A stretch of DNA of 33,039 nucleotides from a virus: positions 1 through 33,039 of the IMG/VR virus record IMGVR_UViG_3300009183_000225; one strand, 5' to 3'. Positions 4,077-32,346 of the stretch are shown one piece after another (the first letter of the stretch is position 1; the number at the start of each line of letters is the position of its first letter). The notes under the pieces are model-generated. The model was not told where the DNA came from and searched no databases. It saw only the letters and a list, made by a program, of their open reading frames with translations. The position numbers and the translations under genes are program-made.

Positions 4077-5951
4077 TTAACGATCTCGGCTGAATGTGTT
4101 ATAGTCAATAGACTTGCTTGATCCACCAATTGCAATTGTGTCAACTTCACCATAGACATTAATGCTAGGTGTGTCAATACGAATTAATTGATTACGACGT
4201 GAAACAATATCATTTGATTTTGGTAATAGATCAATTGTAATTGCGGTGTCAGAGTCAACACCAAATGCATTTAATGACAGCGTTCCAGTACTCAATGTGA
4301 GTGTTCCAATATTTGAATCTTCAACTATAGCATTGTTGTTGCTGTCAATGTAATAACTATAGAGACGTCGAAGATTGGTGTCTTTTGCATGAGGTGCATC
4401 TCCTATATAGTATATTACTCCACCAGAGACCCATCCAGTTGATTTTACAATTGCAAGGCCATCATCAATTGTAAGAGCTGTGCCATATTCTATTGTTAAA
4501 TTTTTAGGATCACCTACCGCAACAGTAAATGTCTTGGATACAAAAACTCGAACAAGTGAGTTTAATATTGCAGGGCTTGTATTATCAACAGCACGAACTA
4601 GTTGTGAATGTCTAAATACACCGTCAAATGACTCTAAATAATTATTACTAAACGCAACAAGTGTTTCCTTAATTTTATCTTGCAGTTGAGTTACTGTAAG
4701 TGTTGTTAGGTTTCGATTATATTTGAATAGCACATCGAGAACAATGTTGATATATTCAGGATCAACAATCTCAGGTAAAATTGACAGCACCTTTTTACCG
4801 CTTATATATTGTAATATTTCTTCTTTTTCAGCAGAACTTAAGAAAATATCGTTTTCATCGTCAGATTTTTTAATTGACATAAAAACTTTTCCATATTGTG
4901 GCGGATTATTTTCTTCTCCACCCCATACAGCCATAGAACGCACTCCAAATTTACTTTGAATGAGTGTCTTATAGTCATCTGCAGTAACTGCACGGTTTTG
5001 AGCAATATATTGAAGTGGTGCATTATATTTGATGCTACCAATTGATTCATTAGTTGACCCTCCAAAGGCTGGGCTTGAGGTTTGTACAGACACAGATGAT
5101 ATTTGATTATCAAAACCACCGTTGTATGAAAACTTATTGCTTGTATTTGCAGCATCTCCAGCGGTAACCAAATATCGTAATTCTAAAATGTTTAAGTTGT
5201 CTGGTTTTTTACCAAAGACACCATTTCCAAATGAAACTACATAGTTGCCAGAATAGTTTTCATAGATAAAATAAATTGGAGTTGTTTCATTTATATCTGT
5301 AACATCAGTAAATTTTGTGTATACTTCTCCAATGTCTTGACGACTGTTTTGATATACAGCAACATTTAGAGTGCGTAAGTCTATATTTTTATCAGAGATT
5401 ACATACTCGTTTTTATCTTCAGCTGAATTGATCTGTATGCGTCGTGTTTGAATTGATCCTTGATGTATTTCTTGATCGACTGCCTCTAAAAGACCAGATG
5501 TTTGATTACGTGTACATTCAATATCTGTTAGGTTGATAAAGTTATATGTAGCACTCTGTCTAGGAATAGGAAAGTTTGATGAAAAGCTGGTGCCTGCAGG
5601 AATTATATAACTATTGACACTAGAGTCACGACTATTGACATAAAGGTTAACTTTTGCTTTTGGAGCAGTGTAACTGTTTGGGGTATATCCAATTAGTTTT
5701 GCAGCAGAGACAACATTTTGGCGTAATTGGGCAGAGTCAATAAAGCTTTCATTTACAGCCATGTGCGCTAACACTGCGTTATAATGGGTGTTGTGTGCCA
5801 ACACATCCATCAATGTATTTAGTCCTGAACCAGTATAGTCCCAATCTTTAAATGGGCTGTCATTTGATTTGAAATAATCAATAAGACTTTGTTTTATATC
5901 AACAAAGTCTAAATTTGTGACGTTTACTGACTGTGAAAATTGTGTACTCAT
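4077..5951 (-). CDS. 6: Baseplate wedge protein gp6
   Basis: 624 residues (T4 gp6 is about 660). The N-terminal region (DWDYTGSGLNTLMDVLAHN, then FIDSAQLRQNVVSAAKLIGY) is the conserved gp6/baseplate-J start, in which the protein recognises its partner and pairs in the wedge ring. The middle contains RAVTADDYKTLIQSKFG, the hallmark of the baseplate_J family, followed by VRSMAVWGGEENNPPQYGKV. gp6 forms the inner ring that controls baseplate opening together with gp25 and gp53. Its ATG overlaps the gp25 stop codon, implying coupled translation. Confidence 0.93.
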   Translation of the reverse strand: MSTQFSQSVNVTNLDFVDIKQSLIDYFKSNDSPFKDWDYTGSGLNTLMDVLAHNTHYNAVLAHMAVNESFIDSAQLRQNVVSAAKLIGYTPNSYTAPKAKVNLYVNSRDSSVNSYIIPAGTSFSSNFPIPRQSATYNFINLTDIECTRNQTSGLLEAVDQEIHQGSIQTRRIQINSAEDKNEYVISDKNIDLRTLNVAVYQNSRQDIGEVYTKFTDVTDINETTPIYFIYENYSGNYVVSFGNGVFGKKPDNLNILELRYLVTAGDAANTSNKFSYNGGFDNQISSVSVQTSSPAFGGSTNESIGSIKYNAPLQYIAQNRAVTADDYKTLIQSKFGVRSMAVWGGEENNPPQYGKVFMSIKKSDDENDIFLSSAEKEEILQYISGKKVLSILPEIVDPEYINIVLDVLFKYNRNLTTLTVTQLQDKIKETLVAFSNNYLESFDGVFRHSQLVRAVDNTSPAILNSLVRVFVSKTFTVAVGDPKNLTIEYGTALTIDDGLAIVKSTGWVSGGVIYYIGDAPHAKDTNLRRLYSYYIDSNNNAIVEDSNIGTLTLSTGTLSLNAFGVDSDTAITIDLLPKSNDIVSRRNQLIRIDTPSINVYGEVDTIAIGGSSKSIDYNTFSRDR

Positions 5952-6388
5952 TATCTTGTGCGTGTTAGATAGATTATAATTTCAGTGTTTGTATCATATG
6001 AAACTTCAAAACCTATTGAAACTCGATATGCATTTTTATCTGATTCATCAGTTACATTTACAATTGGGTTGCGTATACGTGGTTCATAGAGTGCAATAGT
6101 TCTTTGTATCTTATCTTCCAATTCAAGTTCAACTAGTACACTTGCATTTTCAAAAAGCAATTCCCTTATATTTGAACCAATGTTTGGTTGAAATGGACGA
6201 TCATATGTGTTTGTTAGGAGTAAATTTTTAAGACTTTGTTTTACTGCGTCAAGATCTATAAGTGGTAAAACATCATTATAGATTGGATGAACCGAAAAAG
6301 AATTGTCAAGATCAGCATAGACGCGCTGACGTGCTACGTTAGATGACTGTGAAAGATTGTAGTCTGACAATAAATAGGAAGTTCCCAT
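5951..6388 (-). CDS. 25: Baseplate wedge protein gp25
   Basis: 145 residues (T4 gp25 is 132). It shows the gp25/GpW signature: AVKQSLKNLLLTNTYDRPF, PNIGSNIRELLFE, and the EPR motif in ALYEPRIRNP that contacts gp6 and nucleates sheath assembly. The C-terminal strand pair (RVSIGFEVSY) is sheath-like. A late promoter lies only 4 bases upstream of the ATG, so this gene heads a late unit that continues into gp6. Despite old annotations of this family as lysozyme-like, no catalytic residues are evident. Confidence 0.95.
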   Translation of the reverse strand: MGTSYLLSDYNLSQSSNVARQRVYADLDNSFSVHPIYNDVLPLIDLDAVKQSLKNLLLTNTYDRPFQPNIGSNIRELLFENASVLVELELEDKIQRTIALYEPRIRNPIVNVTDESDKNAYRVSIGFEVSYDTNTEIIIYLTRTR

Positions 6389-6402: not shown

Positions 6403-8472
6403 TTATATTTTTGCAAACGCTGGATTGCTGAGAATTGCTGGAGTGCCCTCTTGCATCTCATAGTGTATTCGTTGTACTCGCTCATTATACTCTTTTACTG
6501 TACTGGCTGACCAATATGGATGTTTTGCAAGTTGTTGTTTTACAGCAAAATTAAATTCATTTTTAAAGAGTCTCAGTGAATATTGTGTCTCACCTGATAT
6601 AAAACTTCCTATTGCAGACACCCCTCCAGAGACTGCACGCAGTCCATTAGCTGCTGCAGTCAATCCAGCGTTTAGACCAGCTGTTGCTGGTGACGTGTTT
6701 TCTCGCACACCAGAGGCAGATGTTGTGTTTATTGGTGCAGAACTGTTGATTGCATTAGGCGTACCATAGATGCCTTGTAATAACCCACTAGCAGTGCCAA
6801 GTATGTCTTCAACATTTTGAAGACGCGTTGCTTGAGACACACTTAAGAGTCCAACTGGTGCTGCTACAGATGCAATATTATCATGCCAGTTGTATGCAAG
6901 TTCATGAACAGCTGTAAGCATTGTCATATAGTCTCGTAGTTCAGCAACATTTCCAGAGTCTTTTAAACTCTTAATTTTGTCGCCGTCTTTATATAATGCA
7001 TCTCTTAAATGAAACTGGAAATATTCATAGTCAGTTTTTGCTGCACTTGGTTGCTGATTTGTAAGAGGAATAAAACCACGAACTGCTGTTGGTACTGCTG
7101 TGTTGTCAGCTGTTATTTTGTTTGCAATTGGATTTCCATAAATGTCAACAGCTTCACAAACATCAATTATACCATTTGCAACATCAGTAATAAACTGACC
7201 GACATCTCCTACAGTTGATGCTGAGTTTGGAAATGTGTTTTCAATATTTGCTATTGTTTCATTTGCAATACTTCCAAGTTTTTTATAGGCTCCAGATGCA
7301 GTCAGCACTTGATCAAGAAATGCATATGGATTATTTTTAACAAACTCAATAAGTTCCATTATTTTTTGAACATCATTAATAATTGCTTGAACTTGAGTAA
7401 TCAAATTAATAATTCCAAGTCCCGGAACATATGCTGCTACGAGTGATAACAACTTTACTGCTACAGCAGTTATTAATTTTTGTGGAAGATTTTTTGTGCA
7501 ATCGATAATTGTAGCAGCCTTATCAAGTCCGGCAACTGCAGTCATAGCTGCATTGTTTTCTCCAACATTAATCTCTCCTAAAACTGAAAGTATTCCACTT
7601 GCAATAAATTGCTGTTTAGCGTTATTATCGGAAAATGATGAACTGCTGTCTACCCAATTTTGTGTTTTGGGTGGTAGGGCTCGCACCAATGCGTCATACT
7701 CTTGCTGAGCTGACGCGGCCTCAGTTGTTGTAAGTTGTCTAATTGTGTATGTTGTACTGGCACTTCCAACATAATTTATATCAATACTATTTGCATTGAC
7801 TGAATATGTTCCAATCTCAACTGGCGCTGCATATGCAGCAATGCTCTTTGTACCAGCGTATGCCAAACCAACTTGAATATCTTTACCAAAATCTGCTGAG
7901 GTTGAATCCAACACCTTTGGTGAGGTTGTGTAAGTTATAGCTTGTGCATTTTTGTTGTATGGACGAACAGTGTCTCCAAAAGTTATTGTAAGCGGGCACG
8001 GCCGTATGAGTAGATACTTGGATGTGTCTTTATCTTTTTCTAATGCTATGCCACCAACATCTAATTTAAATGCATTAGTTCTAACAGCAGGCTCCCAACC
8101 AGGAATGTCAACTGGAATTGTGCCGTAATATTCTGTTGTAAAATAACCTTTGTATGTCGGGTCACTCTTTAGAGTAGTGCGTATATTGTAGTCATATCTC
8201 CCAACATTTTTTGGAACATTAGTGAGGGCAGGAATTCCAGTATTGTAAGTAACCTCTATATTAACATCAGTTAAGGGTATTGATTGAATAACCCATGGAA
8301 GTGCACCCGGTCCAGATGTTGCCTCTTGTGTAATTCTATAGACACCAGTAATTAGGTCTACAACTGATCTGGTGTTTCCATTGTATGTTAACGGAATTCC
8401 TGTAGTATTGATGTCAAATCCATCACCATTGCTGTCTGCCAGCCTAATATATAAAAATTTTGTAATAGCCAT
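6403..8472 (-). CDS. Virion-associated protein with MBG/Ig-like domains
   Basis: 689 residues between the spike gene and gp25. Residues about 159-246 (LTITFGDTVRPYNKNAQ..., VGLAYAGTKS, GTYSVNANSI, NYVGSASTTYTI) fit the MBG-type beta-sandwich repeat of surface adhesins. Residues about 66-125 look like a second, weaker copy (VPKNVGRYDYNI, PTYKGYFTTEYYG). Residues about 325-400 are hydrophobic and helical (VKLLSLVAAYVPGLGIINL). The C-terminal part is Ala/Gly/Ser-rich and ends with HPYWSASTVKEYNERVQ. I know of no T4 counterpart at this position. A baseplate accessory or adhesion role is inferred from domain type and position. Confidence 0.75.
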   Translation of the reverse strand: MAITKFLYIRLADSNGDGFDINTTGIPLTYNGNTRSVVDLITGVYRITQEATSGPGALPWVIQSIPLTDVNIEVTYNTGIPALTNVPKNVGRYDYNIRTTLKSDPTYKGYFTTEYYGTIPVDIPGWEPAVRTNAFKLDVGGIALEKDKDTSKYLLIRPCPLTITFGDTVRPYNKNAQAITYTTSPKVLDSTSADFGKDIQVGLAYAGTKSIAAYAAPVEIGTYSVNANSIDINYVGSASTTYTIRQLTTTEAASAQQEYDALVRALPPKTQNWVDSSSSFSDNNAKQQFIASGILSVLGEINVGENNAAMTAVAGLDKAATIIDCTKNLPQKLITAVAVKLLSLVAAYVPGLGIINLITQVQAIINDVQKIMELIEFVKNNPYAFLDQVLTASGAYKKLGSIANETIANIENTFPNSASTVGDVGQFITDVANGIIDVCEAVDIYGNPIANKITADNTAVPTAVRGFIPLTNQQPSAAKTDYEYFQFHLRDALYKDGDKIKSLKDSGNVAELRDYMTMLTAVHELAYNWHDNIASVAAPVGLLSVSQATRLQNVEDILGTASGLLQGIYGTPNAINSSAPINTTSASGVRENTSPATAGLNAGLTAAANGLRAVSGGVSAIGSFISGETQYSLRLFKNEFNFAVKQQLAKHPYWSASTVKEYNERVQRIHYEMQEGTPAILSNPAFAKI

Positions 8473-8473
8473 A

Positions 8474-9301
8474 TTATCCTAATCCTGGTAATGTAACAGA
8501 TGATGTTTCAACATGTGTGTGCGTTGATAAACCTACAACTCCGCCAAGCGCACGAACATCAAGAGTTGCAATAAGTGCACCATTTAATATAGTTACAAGT
8601 GGAGTTGTCATGTTTACAAGTGGGGCTGTCATATTAATGGCTGCTAAACCAGTAAGCGTTAATGTTGTTGCACTATCAACTGCGGCAACAAATCCGCCTA
8701 AAGTAGCAGGACCAGCGGGAGACGATAAACTCATGCCAGTTAGTCCAGTCATTGAAACTGAACCAGTGCAAATTGATGTGTAGTCACCAGCATTAGTGTC
8801 TTCAACACCACCTACAATCATATTTTTTACTCCTCCTGCGCGTACTGTATTGATTAGTCCATTTCCAATAACGCTATCTTTTTTGCCAACTACGTTTTCT
8901 GCAATGTCACCACCAACCTCAGTTTTATGTGCAGCACCAACTTTTAGTTTATATTCGCCCTTTACGGTTTGACTCATGTTTCCATTAACTTCAACATTAT
9001 AGTTTCCATTTATGGTTAGGTTAACAGATCCATTAACGGCAATGTTTGCATCACCAGTTATAGCTATTGTGTCAGTGCCGCACACAGTTGTATATCGATC
9101 TGAAACAACAGTTGTAACATAGGTGCCGTCAGATGCAATTTCATAGTATGTACCAGATTTATGTTTTTGATGTATGCGCTCTTCGCCAAGTGTGTCATCA
9201 ACTTCAAATAAATGACCAGACCGTGTCTGTGTCACATTGTTGTATGGATAAACAGATTGATTTGATTGATGTGGAGTTCCAAATGTACCTTGACCTGCCA
9301 T
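8474..9301 (-). CDS. Baseplate central spike (gp5 C-terminal beta-helix as a separate gene)
   Basis: 275 residues. After a polar N-terminus (GHLFEVDDTLGEERIHQKHKS, quoted in part) comes a run of short beta-strand repeats rich in V/I/T/G/N (INGNYNVEVNGNMSQTVKG) typical of the trimeric gp5/VgrG/gpV spike helix. The C-terminus has an H-T-H motif (His261, His263), the pattern that holds an iron ion at the tip of P2 gpV-type spikes. It corresponds to the C-terminal half of T4 gp5. The other half is the next gene upstream, separated by 24 bases. A probable late promoter variant just upstream could give it separate expression. Confidence 0.88.
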   Translation of the reverse strand: MAGQGTFGTPHQSNQSVYPYNNVTQTRSGHLFEVDDTLGEERIHQKHKSGTYYEIASDGTYVTTVVSDRYTTVCGTDTIAITGDANIAVNGSVNLTINGNYNVEVNGNMSQTVKGEYKLKVGAAHKTEVGGDIAENVVGKKDSVIGNGLINTVRAGGVKNMIVGGVEDTNAGDYTSICTGSVSMTGLTGMSLSSPAGPATLGGFVAAVDSATTLTLTGLAAINMTAPLVNMTTPLVTILNGALIATLDVRALGGVVGLSTHTHVETSSVTLPGLG

Positions 9302-9309
9302 AATGTTAT

Positions 9310-9317
9310 TATTTATT
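9310..9317 (-). promoter_or_regulatory. Probable late promoter variant AATAAATA for the spike gene
   Basis: This differs from TATAAATA in its first base. It lies in the 24-bp gap between the two gp5 halves, 8 bases upstream of the spike ATG, the same short spacing as the perfect late octamers here. Confidence 0.5.
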
Positions 9318-9325
9318 AAAAAAAA

Positions 9326-10219
9326 TTAAGCTAATGGCGCGTCTGAATCAGATTTCCATCGTAAGACACATGGCCAATAATATTTTTTAGTGCGTTCATA
9401 GACTCCTCGCGGGCTTCCAGTGTTTCCTTCAATTGTGGAGTGTGCTTCATTTCGTCTATCATTGCACCCTACAGATATTATTCCAATATGGCCAAACCCT
9501 GATCCTACAGCTCCTCGATGGCGAATTATAATATCACCAGGTTGGTATGTATTATCAGCAGCAAGTGCAACATATTTTGAGCCTTTACCCTTTGCCCATT
9601 CTTTATATGACCATGAAAAATTTGGGTTTGATGGCAAATCTTCTTTTGGCACGCCTGAACGAACCAAACAATATGCTACAAATGCAGCGCACCATGGCAA
9701 CCCTCCGCCAAGATATTTTGATCCATTTTTTTCACCAACTTGTGTTCGAGCAATGTTAACTAGGTTACGAGCAATTTCACTGTTTGTCGCACCACTAATT
9801 GTCGGTATATCAGGGTCAAGAGTAGATGTGTCAGCCGGACCACCTATAGGCGCACCACTTGAATATAAAGATGTTGCAGCGATTCCAATTGAACTGCTTG
9901 TTGCAGTGTCAGGTATACCTTGTCCATTTAGCGCTTCGACACCAGGAATTGATCCAATAATAACAGGATCTTGATTGTCAACATCTCTAAAAAAGCCAAA
10001 GACCCATGAACCAACTAGGAGTCCAGTTGCGCTTGTACCAGTTCCACCTGAACTAGCACTGGTAACTGGAAGCAGCGGCAGTGCCCATGGTAGGTCAACA
10101 TCAGGCAAGTCACCTTCATCGGTGGTATGATATTCATAACATCGTATTTGTACCCGTCCAGCATTTAATGGGTCGGCTAAATTTGTAACTATTGCAGTAA
10201 ACCAATTATCGAGTCTCAT
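9326..10219 (-). CDS. 5: Baseplate hub protein: gp5-like OB domain fused to a CHAP peptidase
   Basis: 297 residues. Residues 1-95 form a gp5-type OB fold (LDNWFTAIVTNLADPLNAGR, WALPLLPVTSA, GSWVFGFFRDVDNQDPVIIG). After a Ser/Gly/Pro-rich linker, residues about 147-290 form a CHAP/TIGR02594-like amidase-peptidase: IARTQVGEKNGS, WCAAFVAYCLVRSG with catalytic Cys177, GHIGIISV with His244, and EGN at 264-266. T4 gp5 has a lysozyme here, so the wall-cutting enzyme has been swapped. The product should sit in the hub on the gp27-like ring and cut peptidoglycan at injection. Together with the spike gene the length (572 residues) is close to the 575 of T4 gp5. Confidence 0.88.
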   Translation of the reverse strand: MRLDNWFTAIVTNLADPLNAGRVQIRCYEYHTTDEGDLPDVDLPWALPLLPVTSASSGGTGTSATGLLVGSWVFGFFRDVDNQDPVIIGSIPGVEALNGQGIPDTATSSSIGIAATSLYSSGAPIGGPADTSTLDPDIPTISGATNSEIARNLVNIARTQVGEKNGSKYLGGGLPWCAAFVAYCLVRSGVPKEDLPSNPNFSWSYKEWAKGKGSKYVALAADNTYQPGDIIIRHRGAVGSGFGHIGIISVGCNDRRNEAHSTIEGNTGSPRGVYERTKKYYWPCVLRWKSDSDAPLA

Positions 10220-10222
10220 AAT

Positions 10223-11782
10223 TTATGCTTGTTGTTGATCAGGTAAAACACCAGTTAGATTTTCAGTAGGAGGTGGCGGAGTTAACTCTACTGGAATTGT
10301 TTGGCTGTCTTTTGTGACTGGAAGATCTTCAATTCTAAATAATTTTATTTTGCATGTATAGACACCATCAACAAAATTGTGAGATGCAACAGAAATAAGG
10401 TAACGTCCTGATACAGTTGCATCAAGTGGTGCTCTTTCGGCAACTATTTGATCAAATGCCAAATCTACTTCGCTTGCATCAGGATTGTATTTCTGAACAG
10501 TTGGAACTTCTAATAGTAGTATTGTGCCCGGATTTAGTCGTGTCTTTCCATAGACAATAATTTCATGATCATATTCATTCATTCTAGCTACAAATGATTT
10601 TGCACGTTGAATGTTTTGGGAGAGTGACGATGTAACAGAATTTGTTAATGCTGTTGATGGGTCTCCATATGTTGGGGCAAAACTAATTTGCACACTAGAA
10701 ATACTAGTTTCTGGCACGTCATAGAGCGTCTTTCCGTCATTTGATGCTCCATCAACTTTATACTTATTTGATTTCCATGGTACTACACTCATTTTGCCAA
10801 TACGATATGGTTTTGATTCTTCTGTCGTATAGTCGAGTGTGTAATAGGTCTTTGCTGAAAAGTCTGTAACATTTAATCGGTTTGCATAACCACCCTCAAG
10901 TGCAGTCTTTAAGCGATCAAGTTTTAAATTTGAAGTCATACTTAATATTCGCGTCTGTTCTTCAGCATATGCCTCAGCCGTGCCTGGCTCATATTCTATA
11001 CGTTGACGATACTTGTATGTTAGGTCTTTTGAAGGACTCTTTTGATTGTTTACAAGTCCACCAAATGATGCAAAATATACTGTGCCCGCATCATTGCCAG
11101 GATATGTGACTTTATTATAAAGGAAAAACGGCGATTGATCCTGGTCAAATGAACGAGAACGCAACCATTCAGCAGCGCTCAACGGGTTCTGTATTGTGAT
11201 CAACCCATCAAATTTACTTACTGGCTCTTGGCCATCACCTTCTAATTTGACCTCGGCCAATCCTAGGTCTTCTTTAAAGATTTTTTCTATATTAGCAAAT
11301 GTATTTTGCTTTACGGGGCGACATATTTTCATTAGTCGATCAGTGTATGCAAATTCTGATACAGCAACAAACGTAAATATTTGGTTGTTTGGAAAATCTA
11401 AAGTTTTTATGTAGTTTGGATATTCTTTTATAGCAAATCTTTGGATTATTTCTTTTTGTTCATCATCATATCCAGAAACAATTTTTAAATATATTTTTTC
11501 TTGACCAGTTAGACTATTACCTATGTTATTTGAGATTAAAAATTTACCTAATTTATTGTTTGTATCACGAATAGACCCACTAAGCGTAAGTATTGGTGAA
11601 AATATTTCGGCTGTAATATTAAATGATGTTACAATTTCACGTATATCAACTTTATAATTGTAGTTATTGCCAGAAACATCTGGAAATTCCATGTACATAT
11701 ATTCTATATAGAATCTTCCTGGAATCTTTTGTGAGTCGTCACTCCCTTGTTTTGGAGCGTTTATATATGATGTTGTTGCCAT
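10223..11782 (-). CDS. Baseplate hub protein, gp27-like
   Basis: 519 residues (T4 gp27 is about 391). It lies immediately upstream of the OB-CHAP gene, with 3 bases between them. The N-terminus has hub-type beta-barrel features (SFNITAEIFSPILTLSGSI, then RDTNNKLGKFL), with DFPNNQIFTFVAVSEFAY, LITIQNPLSAAEWLRSRSF and PFFLYN typical of the gp27/gpD-like hub. Late residues (VYGKTRLNPGTILLLEVP, SGRYLISVASHNFVDG) fit the second tube-like domain. It should form the trimeric ring that carries the spike complex. The assignment is by pattern and position, not by alignment. Confidence 0.75.
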   Translation of the reverse strand: MATTSYINAPKQGSDDSQKIPGRFYIEYMYMEFPDVSGNNYNYKVDIREIVTSFNITAEIFSPILTLSGSIRDTNNKLGKFLISNNIGNSLTGQEKIYLKIVSGYDDEQKEIIQRFAIKEYPNYIKTLDFPNNQIFTFVAVSEFAYTDRLMKICRPVKQNTFANIEKIFKEDLGLAEVKLEGDGQEPVSKFDGLITIQNPLSAAEWLRSRSFDQDQSPFFLYNKVTYPGNDAGTVYFASFGGLVNNQKSPSKDLTYKYRQRIEYEPGTAEAYAEEQTRILSMTSNLKLDRLKTALEGGYANRLNVTDFSAKTYYTLDYTTEESKPYRIGKMSVVPWKSNKYKVDGASNDGKTLYDVPETSISSVQISFAPTYGDPSTALTNSVTSSLSQNIQRAKSFVARMNEYDHEIIVYGKTRLNPGTILLLEVPTVQKYNPDASEVDLAFDQIVAERAPLDATVSGRYLISVASHNFVDGVYTCKIKLFRIEDLPVTKDSQTIPVELTPPPPTENLTGVLPDQQQA

Positions 11783-26510: not shown

Positions 26511-26966
26511 TTACTGCTTTTCAGAGCCAAAATGCGCTCTTTTGTGCCGGATCACTGCGGAAATGCCGTCCTGATCACACTCTAATTGACTCAGAGCATT
26601 TTTTAGTACATATTGTTCAATCTCCCGTACGGAATCGTATGGACCCATGGCCCAACCAGAAATGTAATCTGCAATCTCATCAACAGTGAAACGCTCATCG
26701 GCACTTGCCAACTTATACTCTTCCAATTTGGATTCCAACTCTTCAATGTAGCCGTTGCGTGATATTGTTACAGCGCCATGGCCTTTTACTAATAGTGCTT
26801 TAAGCCTTTCAATTTCATTTTGTGCGGCAACGAGTTCTCGTTCCAACTTGCATCCTTCTTCATAACAACTGTGAGCATAAACACTCGTAGGAGTTGTGGT
26901 TGAATAAAACCCATCAGCCGTTCTTGAAGATCTGTCCCATGCTTCTGTCATTCTTGGTGTGTTCAT
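26511..26966 (-). CDS. Coiled-coil protein with a shared C-terminal domain
   Basis: 151 residues. The middle (ELVAAQNEIERLKALL) is coiled coil, then GAVTISRNGYIEELESKLEE, a motif also present in the gene at 27155-28144. The C-terminal domain TVDEIADYISGWAMGPYDSV ... NALSQLECDQDGISAV is homologous to that of the gene at 32050-32346. It is thus a mosaic of modules found elsewhere in the window. Function unknown. Confidence 0.8.
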   Translation of the reverse strand: MNTPRMTEAWDRSSRTADGFYSTTTPTSVYAHSCYEEGCKLERELVAAQNEIERLKALLVKGHGAVTISRNGYIEELESKLEEYKLASADERFTVDEIADYISGWAMGPYDSVREIEQYVLKNALSQLECDQDGISAVIRHKRAHFGSEKQ

Positions 26967-32049: not shown

Positions 32050-32346
32050 TTATCTGCTCTGCTTTCGTTCTCGCACTGCAGCAATGCCGTCTTGATCACA
32101 TTGCAGTTGCGATAGAGCATTCAGCAATACTGCTTTTCCAATTTCATGAACTGATTCATACGGACCCATGCTCCAACCAGAGATGTAATCAGCAATCTCT
32201 TCAATGCTATACTGAGGCCCTTGCTGTTCGGTCAATTGACTTTCAAAGCGTTGTGCTAGCATCATCATTTTTGCGGCTCGCACAGGCGCGATGGCGCCGC
32301 TTTCATATAGCTTGTGCGCTAAGGAATCTGTTATAGGACTTTTCAT
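32050..32346 (-). CDS. Protein sharing the IADYISGW domain (98 aa)
   Basis: The N-terminal half (SLAHKLYESGAIAPVRAAKM) differs from its paralogue, but residues about 45-92 (SIEEIADYISGWSMGPYESV ... NALSQLQCDQDGIAAV) match the C-terminus of the 151-residue protein at 26511-26966, with clear DNA similarity too. Function unknown. Confidence 0.8.
   Translation of the reverse strand: MKSPITDSLAHKLYESGAIAPVRAAKMMMLAQRFESQLTEQQGPQYSIEEIADYISGWSMGPYESVHEIGKAVLLNALSQLQCDQDGIAAVRERKQSR

Follow-up and report, generated by a model that had tools for sequence, protein, structure and literature searches.

A putative gp5 equivalent encoded by separate OB-CHAP and spike genes in an uncultured T4-like virus and its relatives

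gp5-type puncturing devices in described phages

The gp5 protein of phage T4 is the textbook cell-puncturing device: one chain, cut during assembly, in which an OB-fold domain is followed by a T4-type lysozyme and a gp5C beta-helix of VxGxxxxx octads. Cleavage separates Ser351 from Ala352, and the products remain associated as (gp27-gp5*-gp5C)3; gp5C drives trimerisation of the whole of gp5, and the needle keeps the lysozyme at ~10% activity until the needle falls away (PMC3004832). T4 also has a PAAR cap, gp5.4. The spikes of P2 (gpV), phi92 and the R2 pyocin have no PAAR cap and instead carry a C-terminal histidine motif expected to bind an apex metal, the tip being closed by histidine-held iron (PMC10715212). 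In the Ackermannviridae phages CBA120, phiEa2809 and phiMAM1, gp5 is one uninterrupted gene of ~537-617 aa that joins OB, CHAP and gp5C-like spike parts; the CHAP domain in place of the lysozyme inside gp5 was published for CBA120 in 2011, and the Vi1 ortholog was detected in virions (PMC3184105). The gp5 proteins of KVP40 and P1 combine an OB domain and a gp5-type beta-helix in one chain without an enzyme domain (record note; PMC9024508). We also found a fused gene in Ochrobactrum phage OC and, by a weak spike match, in the cyanophages S-RIM2 and S-TIM4.

Two genes in place of one

The window considered here, the whole stretch of 33,039 nucleotides that was analyzed, comes from an uncultured T4-like virus, and both genes of its gp5 equivalent lie on the minus strand. 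By homology, the OB-CHAP gene (9326..10219, minus strand; 297 aa) encodes the N-terminal half, a hub adaptor with a peptidoglycan peptidase, and the spike gene (8474..9301, minus strand; 275 aa) encodes a gp5C-like trimerisation domain and an octad-repeat beta-helix. The order of the parts is that of T4 gp5, and both ends are homologous to it, but the window has two genes and a CHAP peptidase where T4 has one chain and a lysozyme. OB, CHAP and spike are also the parts found in Ackermannviridae, there in a single gene, and the OB domain and beta-helix are shared with KVP40 and P1. The two genes are separated by a gap of 24 bp (9302..9325, minus strand), eight sense codons lying between a single TAA and the ATG with the frame unchanged, and the two halves are not encoded in one polypeptide. 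The spike gene starts at the equivalent of about T4 gp5 residue 370, ~19 residues past the 351/352 cut and within the linker region, so that the break falls near the maturation cut. Both genes match PHROG 430 (baseplate hub and tail lysozyme), OB-CHAP with the start of the family and the spike with its middle part. The coordinates and sizes are those given in a preliminary description of this DNA, which had proposed a gp5 equivalent split into genes of 297 and 275 residues by a stop and a 24-bp gap. Judging from the genes alone, we place at about 0.78 the probability that in this T4-superfamily virus the gp5 equivalent is the joint product of the two, assembled as proposed below.

Because both open reading frames are in one frame, with only the TAA and eight codons between them, one gene could in principle have been broken in two by a single error in sequencing or by a stop mutation of recent origin. 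The OB-CHAP and spike sequences of the window served as queries to retrieve the loci of relatives; the resulting counts are redundant and describe the sample, not prevalence. Relatives at ~50-60% identity carry the same two genes, and a promoter motif is conserved within the gap. We compared 46 distinct junctions at which an OB- or CHAP-bearing gene adjoins a spike gene; the gap ranges from -10 to 74 nt, and the reading frame differs between the two genes at 34 of them. The nearest relative in a hub tree (L005), whose OB-CHAP protein is 53% identical, has a different gap and a different frame. Since independent relatives keep the split with differing gaps and frames, the window's split is not a sequencing error, one outcome that the preliminary description had named as fatal to its proposal; the relatives refute the broken-gene explanation, to which we attach almost no credence. 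The continuity of the window's frame except for the TAA would also allow occasional read-through, yielding some OB-CHAP-spike fusion in addition to the separate chains. This continuity is not conserved, however, since 29 and 5 of the 46 junctions lie in the two frames other than the window's, and the spike gene starts independently, behind a promoter of its own. We consider fusion by read-through very improbable, and given the varying frame relation among relatives we reject it, as we do fusion by frameshifting.

The OB-fold domain (residues 3-95; 9935..10213, minus strand) matched Pfam Gp5_OB at 2.2e-14 and PHROG 430 at 3.6e-35. In a search of the PDB, residues 5-95 aligned with T4 gp5 residues 9-104 (E 1e-11), a match that strengthened to 1.5e-29 with a profile from 28 relatives. 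The CHAP domain, of the NlpC/P60 type (residues 171-266; 9422..9709, minus strand), matched Pfam CHAP at 1.4e-7, with a score of 32.3 bits against a cut-off of 26, and contains the predicted catalytic residues C177, H244 and N266; Pfam found no T4-type lysozyme domain, and CHAP stands in its place. W176, C177, H244, G265 and N266 are unchanged throughout a set of 28 OB-CHAP proteins. The exchange of the lysozyme for a Cys/His CHAP peptidase therefore stands as first described for C177, H244 and N266, but not for E264, which was also listed and is E, D, G or Q among the 28 relatives. An AlphaFold2 model of OB-CHAP was of moderate confidence (pLDDT 70), with a disordered linker at residues 94-142, and Foldseek matched it to gp5 OB domains and weakly to CHAP endolysins. 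OB-CHAP may carry the peptidase predicted to open peptidoglycan during entry.

It is unlikely, in our estimation, that another OB protein is the hub adaptor of the particle and that OB-CHAP acts elsewhere, for example in lysis. In some relatives OB-CHAP is accompanied by another OB gene that lacks an enzyme, which would suit such a division of labor, but the window has a single OB gene, flanked by the hub gene and the spike in the T4 order. Moreover, OB, CHAP and spike are known elsewhere as parts of one protein because they are fused in Ackermannviridae, with the Vi1 ortholog present in virions (PMC3184105).

The spike protein matched Pfam Gp5_trimer_C at 6.6e-9, with Gp5_C falling just below the cut-off. 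From residue 7 onward it aligned with T4 gp5 from residue 376 onward in the PDB search (E 5e-16; 5.5e-39 with a profile from 30 relatives), and its octad repeat comprises six [VI]xG pairs spaced 8 residues apart, compared to 0.12 in shuffled sequences. A monomer model was of high confidence at residues 80-190 and lacked intrachain strands, as expected because one chain of an intertwined helix was modeled; its best Foldseek matches were two gp5 proteins, one from a Klebsiella phage and the other from T4. The repeat, the PDB match and the Foldseek match of the monomer model all bear out the earlier assignment of the spike to the gp5C beta-helix type.

Near its C terminus the spike has an HTH motif (H261, H263; 8513..8521, minus strand), where T4 relies on the gp5.4 cap. 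This HxH pattern resembles the iron-binding tips of the P2, phi92 and R2 spikes; the likeness lies in the motif, and comparison of the window tip with those tips gave no sequence match. HxH and the flanking D, L and T are invariant in 15 aligned tails that were picked for having HxH, and some HxH is present in 60 of 87 different spike tails, a few of them, such as that of phage Melnitz, away from the apex. We found no PAAR gene in the window, a 33-kb fragment of a genome whose remainder could hold one. On the contigs of relatives, PAAR genes accompanied none of 12 HxH tips versus 3 of 8 plain beta-helix ends, a weak contrast (one-sided p ~0.05); most of the HxH contigs without PAAR are among the longer ones. 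This pattern fits, albeit weakly, a needle that caps itself, and by analogy the tip may hold an apex metal.

Arrangements among relatives and cultured phages

Among locus records containing both parts, OB and spike are encoded by separate genes in ~128 and by one gene in 16, and the split turns out to be frequent across a large aquatic group of relatives, a widely distributed version of a known device rather than a one-off. Besides the OB-CHAP/spike arrangement of the window, we observed OB/CHAP/spike, OB/OB-CHAP/CHAP/spike, OB-VanY/M15/spike, OB followed by a ~300-aa helical gene and spike, and enzyme-free OB-spike fusions. A hub tree groups the split forms, with few changes needed, and places the fused references on very long branches with the root unknown; we therefore make no claim as to whether fission or fusion came first.

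Several of these arrangements have features of their own. Tandem OB genes, one enzyme-free (~100-230 aa) and one CHAP bearing, occur in L006 and L008-L019 (for example, at L013:4302-7143), where mostly a further CHAP gene comes next and then the spike; this points to OB subunits of two types in the hub. A three-way split into OB alone, a CHAP-like gene and the spike is present in L024-L033 and L054-L062, and in L024 the separate CHAP-like gene has an M15_3 peptidase domain (2e-14). In L028, L034 and L002, a VanY/M15-type peptidase replaces CHAP behind OB with the spike separate (L034 being assigned by similarity to L028). In another lineage (L106, L124, L132, L161 and similar loci), the gene for a ~300-aa helical protein has an OB-only gene on one side and the spike on the other. 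These proteins share an H-x-CD motif and are fused to the OB domain in L129 and L153, but Pfam found no enzyme family in them, with only chance-level helical matches, and we rejected the idea that they are the separated enzyme.

Split genes are also present in genomes of cultured phages. Methylophilales phage Melnitz, the nearest named phage by gp6 (36%), has an OB-enzyme gene (annotated "OB domain protein") followed by a separate spike gene ("tail lysozyme"), as in the window, but its enzyme is a VanY/M15-type peptidase rather than CHAP and its spike gene is much longer (667 aa). Separate OB-CHAP-type genes of ~255-328 aa are found in Delftia phage PhiW-14, Ochrobactrum phage ORM_20 and the Pootjesviridae (Atu_ph04, OLIVR5 and RHph_Y68), the free-standing gene being assigned in some Pootjesviridae members by annotation and match. 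The PhiW-14 "endolysin" consists of a gp5-like spike segment fused to a GH19-like domain, unlike the window spike. The OB-CHAP open reading frame of this phage (L174:3495-4481), directly before the "endolysin" gene, is absent from its record. In Atu_ph04, the best spike candidate is weak and lies ~96 kb from the OB-CHAP gene, and in OLIVR5 we did not find a spike gene. The preliminary description therefore overstated how unusual the locus is, since CHAP within gp5 had been published for CBA120 and the split occurs in Melnitz, PhiW-14, Pootjesviridae and most sampled relatives. Our search of open-licence literature found no paper that discusses a split of the gp5 gene, and the separate OB-enzyme and spike genes in cultured-phage genomes have apparently gone unremarked so far. 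It is also evident from the relatives that the parts are overlooked or wrongly named by annotation pipelines. The parts and the published enzyme swap were known, and split genes were already present in public genomes, apparently without comment; what is new is the systematic modularity with a separate, conserved spike promoter.

Late promoters and the proposed assembly

A T4-type late promoter box, AATAAATA, lies in the gap (9310..9317, minus strand) and begins 16 nt upstream of the spike ATG. Among natural variants of the T4 late box this sequence is the most common, with A at -13 in 9 of 50 listed sites (PMC2988020). As a control for the motif, we used the gp25 gene (5951..6388, minus strand), which has a TATAAATA box 12 nt before its ATG. 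In CHAP-bearing relatives, 27 of 39 distinct spike genes have a NATAAATA box in the 40 nt ahead of their ATG, compared to 2.3 expected from shuffled sequences; a late box is also found upstream of gp25 in 32/32 and of the tube-cap gene in 18/23, and it is not above chance before gp53, hub, OB, MBG or gp6. A box matching TATAAATA or a natural variant is thus enriched before late genes, and the probable late promoter that had been noted between the two genes is upheld. In the window, late boxes are located upstream of 6388(-), 9301(-), 13514(-), 14005(+) and 1626(-).

Behind the spike, and ahead of gp25, is a gene for an MBG-domain protein (6403..8472, minus strand; 689 aa), which has no box of its own and is therefore probably cotranscribed with the spike. 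Because the box precedes spike, gp25 and tube cap, and not hub, OB or MBG, the spike and MBG genes appear from the sequence to form a transcription unit apart from a tube cap-gp53-hub-OB-CHAP unit. With start codons as predicted, late promoters lie ~12-17 nt upstream of the ATG, and the gp25 late box lies 12-19 nt before the ATG without a Shine-Dalgarno sequence at 61 of 70 distinct loci, and at -24/-25 with a Shine-Dalgarno sequence at 7 of 70, including Melnitz. In T4 numbering, such box-to-ATG spacing would place the transcript start at or beside the ATG, and late mRNAs are thus predicted to be leaderless in most of these viruses.

In the assembly we propose, OB-CHAP would dock through its OB domain beneath a gp27-like hub, bearing the enzyme that would open peptidoglycan on entry. 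The spike, transcribed from its own late promoter, would form a trimeric gp5C-type beta-helix needle beneath OB-CHAP, with a tip closed by its own HxH motif and not by a separate PAAR cap. The hub protein encoded at the gp27 position (10223..11782, minus strand; 519 aa; PHROG 350 tail protein) is taken as the gp27 equivalent by position; a 13-sequence profile of it gave no PDB match and so no sequence match to gp27. Since the gene boundary sits in the linker that T4 cleaves after synthesis, the mature particle would contain the same separate chains as that of T4, three of each, without a cut, and it is plausible that no proteolytic maturation is needed. We infer from this model that the proteins are located in the virion in a 3:3:3 stoichiometry. 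As gp5C trimerises gp5 in T4, OB-CHAP here would have to be trimerised by contact with the hub or the needle, and its enzyme would not be tethered to the needle that blocks the enzyme in T4.

The split might also be a fission of neutral effect, changing nothing in the mechanism except that assembly takes one step fewer; this is a variant of the proposed assembly rather than an exclusive alternative. The T4 gene order and a break within the linker that is in any case cleaved in T4 are what such an event would leave, but a conserved promoter precedes the spike gene itself, and the repeated swapping and separation of a loose enzyme module in relatives suggest that the modularity is used. We give neutral fission slightly less than an even chance. 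More tentative still, and to our minds somewhat doubtful, is a wider extension of the proposed assembly to a broad assemblage of uncultured T4-like viruses from aquatic habitats, in which the modules of the central puncturing complex would be transcribed independently. These modules would be the hub, either one OB protein or two, a peptidase that can be exchanged and is perhaps a chain of its own, and a needle that caps itself and is translated from a dedicated late mRNA, probably without a leader; the enzyme would never be covalently tied to the needle and, unlike the T4 lysozyme, would not be inhibited by it. A natural separate-chain version tests whether the single chain and its cut matter for assembly or for silencing of the enzyme, and the relatives offer a ready series for such tests, with fused, two-way split and three-way split forms and different enzymes.

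Two observations on neighboring genes were made in passing. The 689-aa protein contains an MBG_3 domain (5e-7), which is unusual for a phage baseplate operon; it is kept behind the spike in relatives and reaches 800-960 aa in some. Two small unknown genes on the minus strand (26511-26966 and 32050-32346), within a region of many such genes, have in common a near-identical segment, YISGWxMGPYxSVxEI, that has apparently been duplicated.
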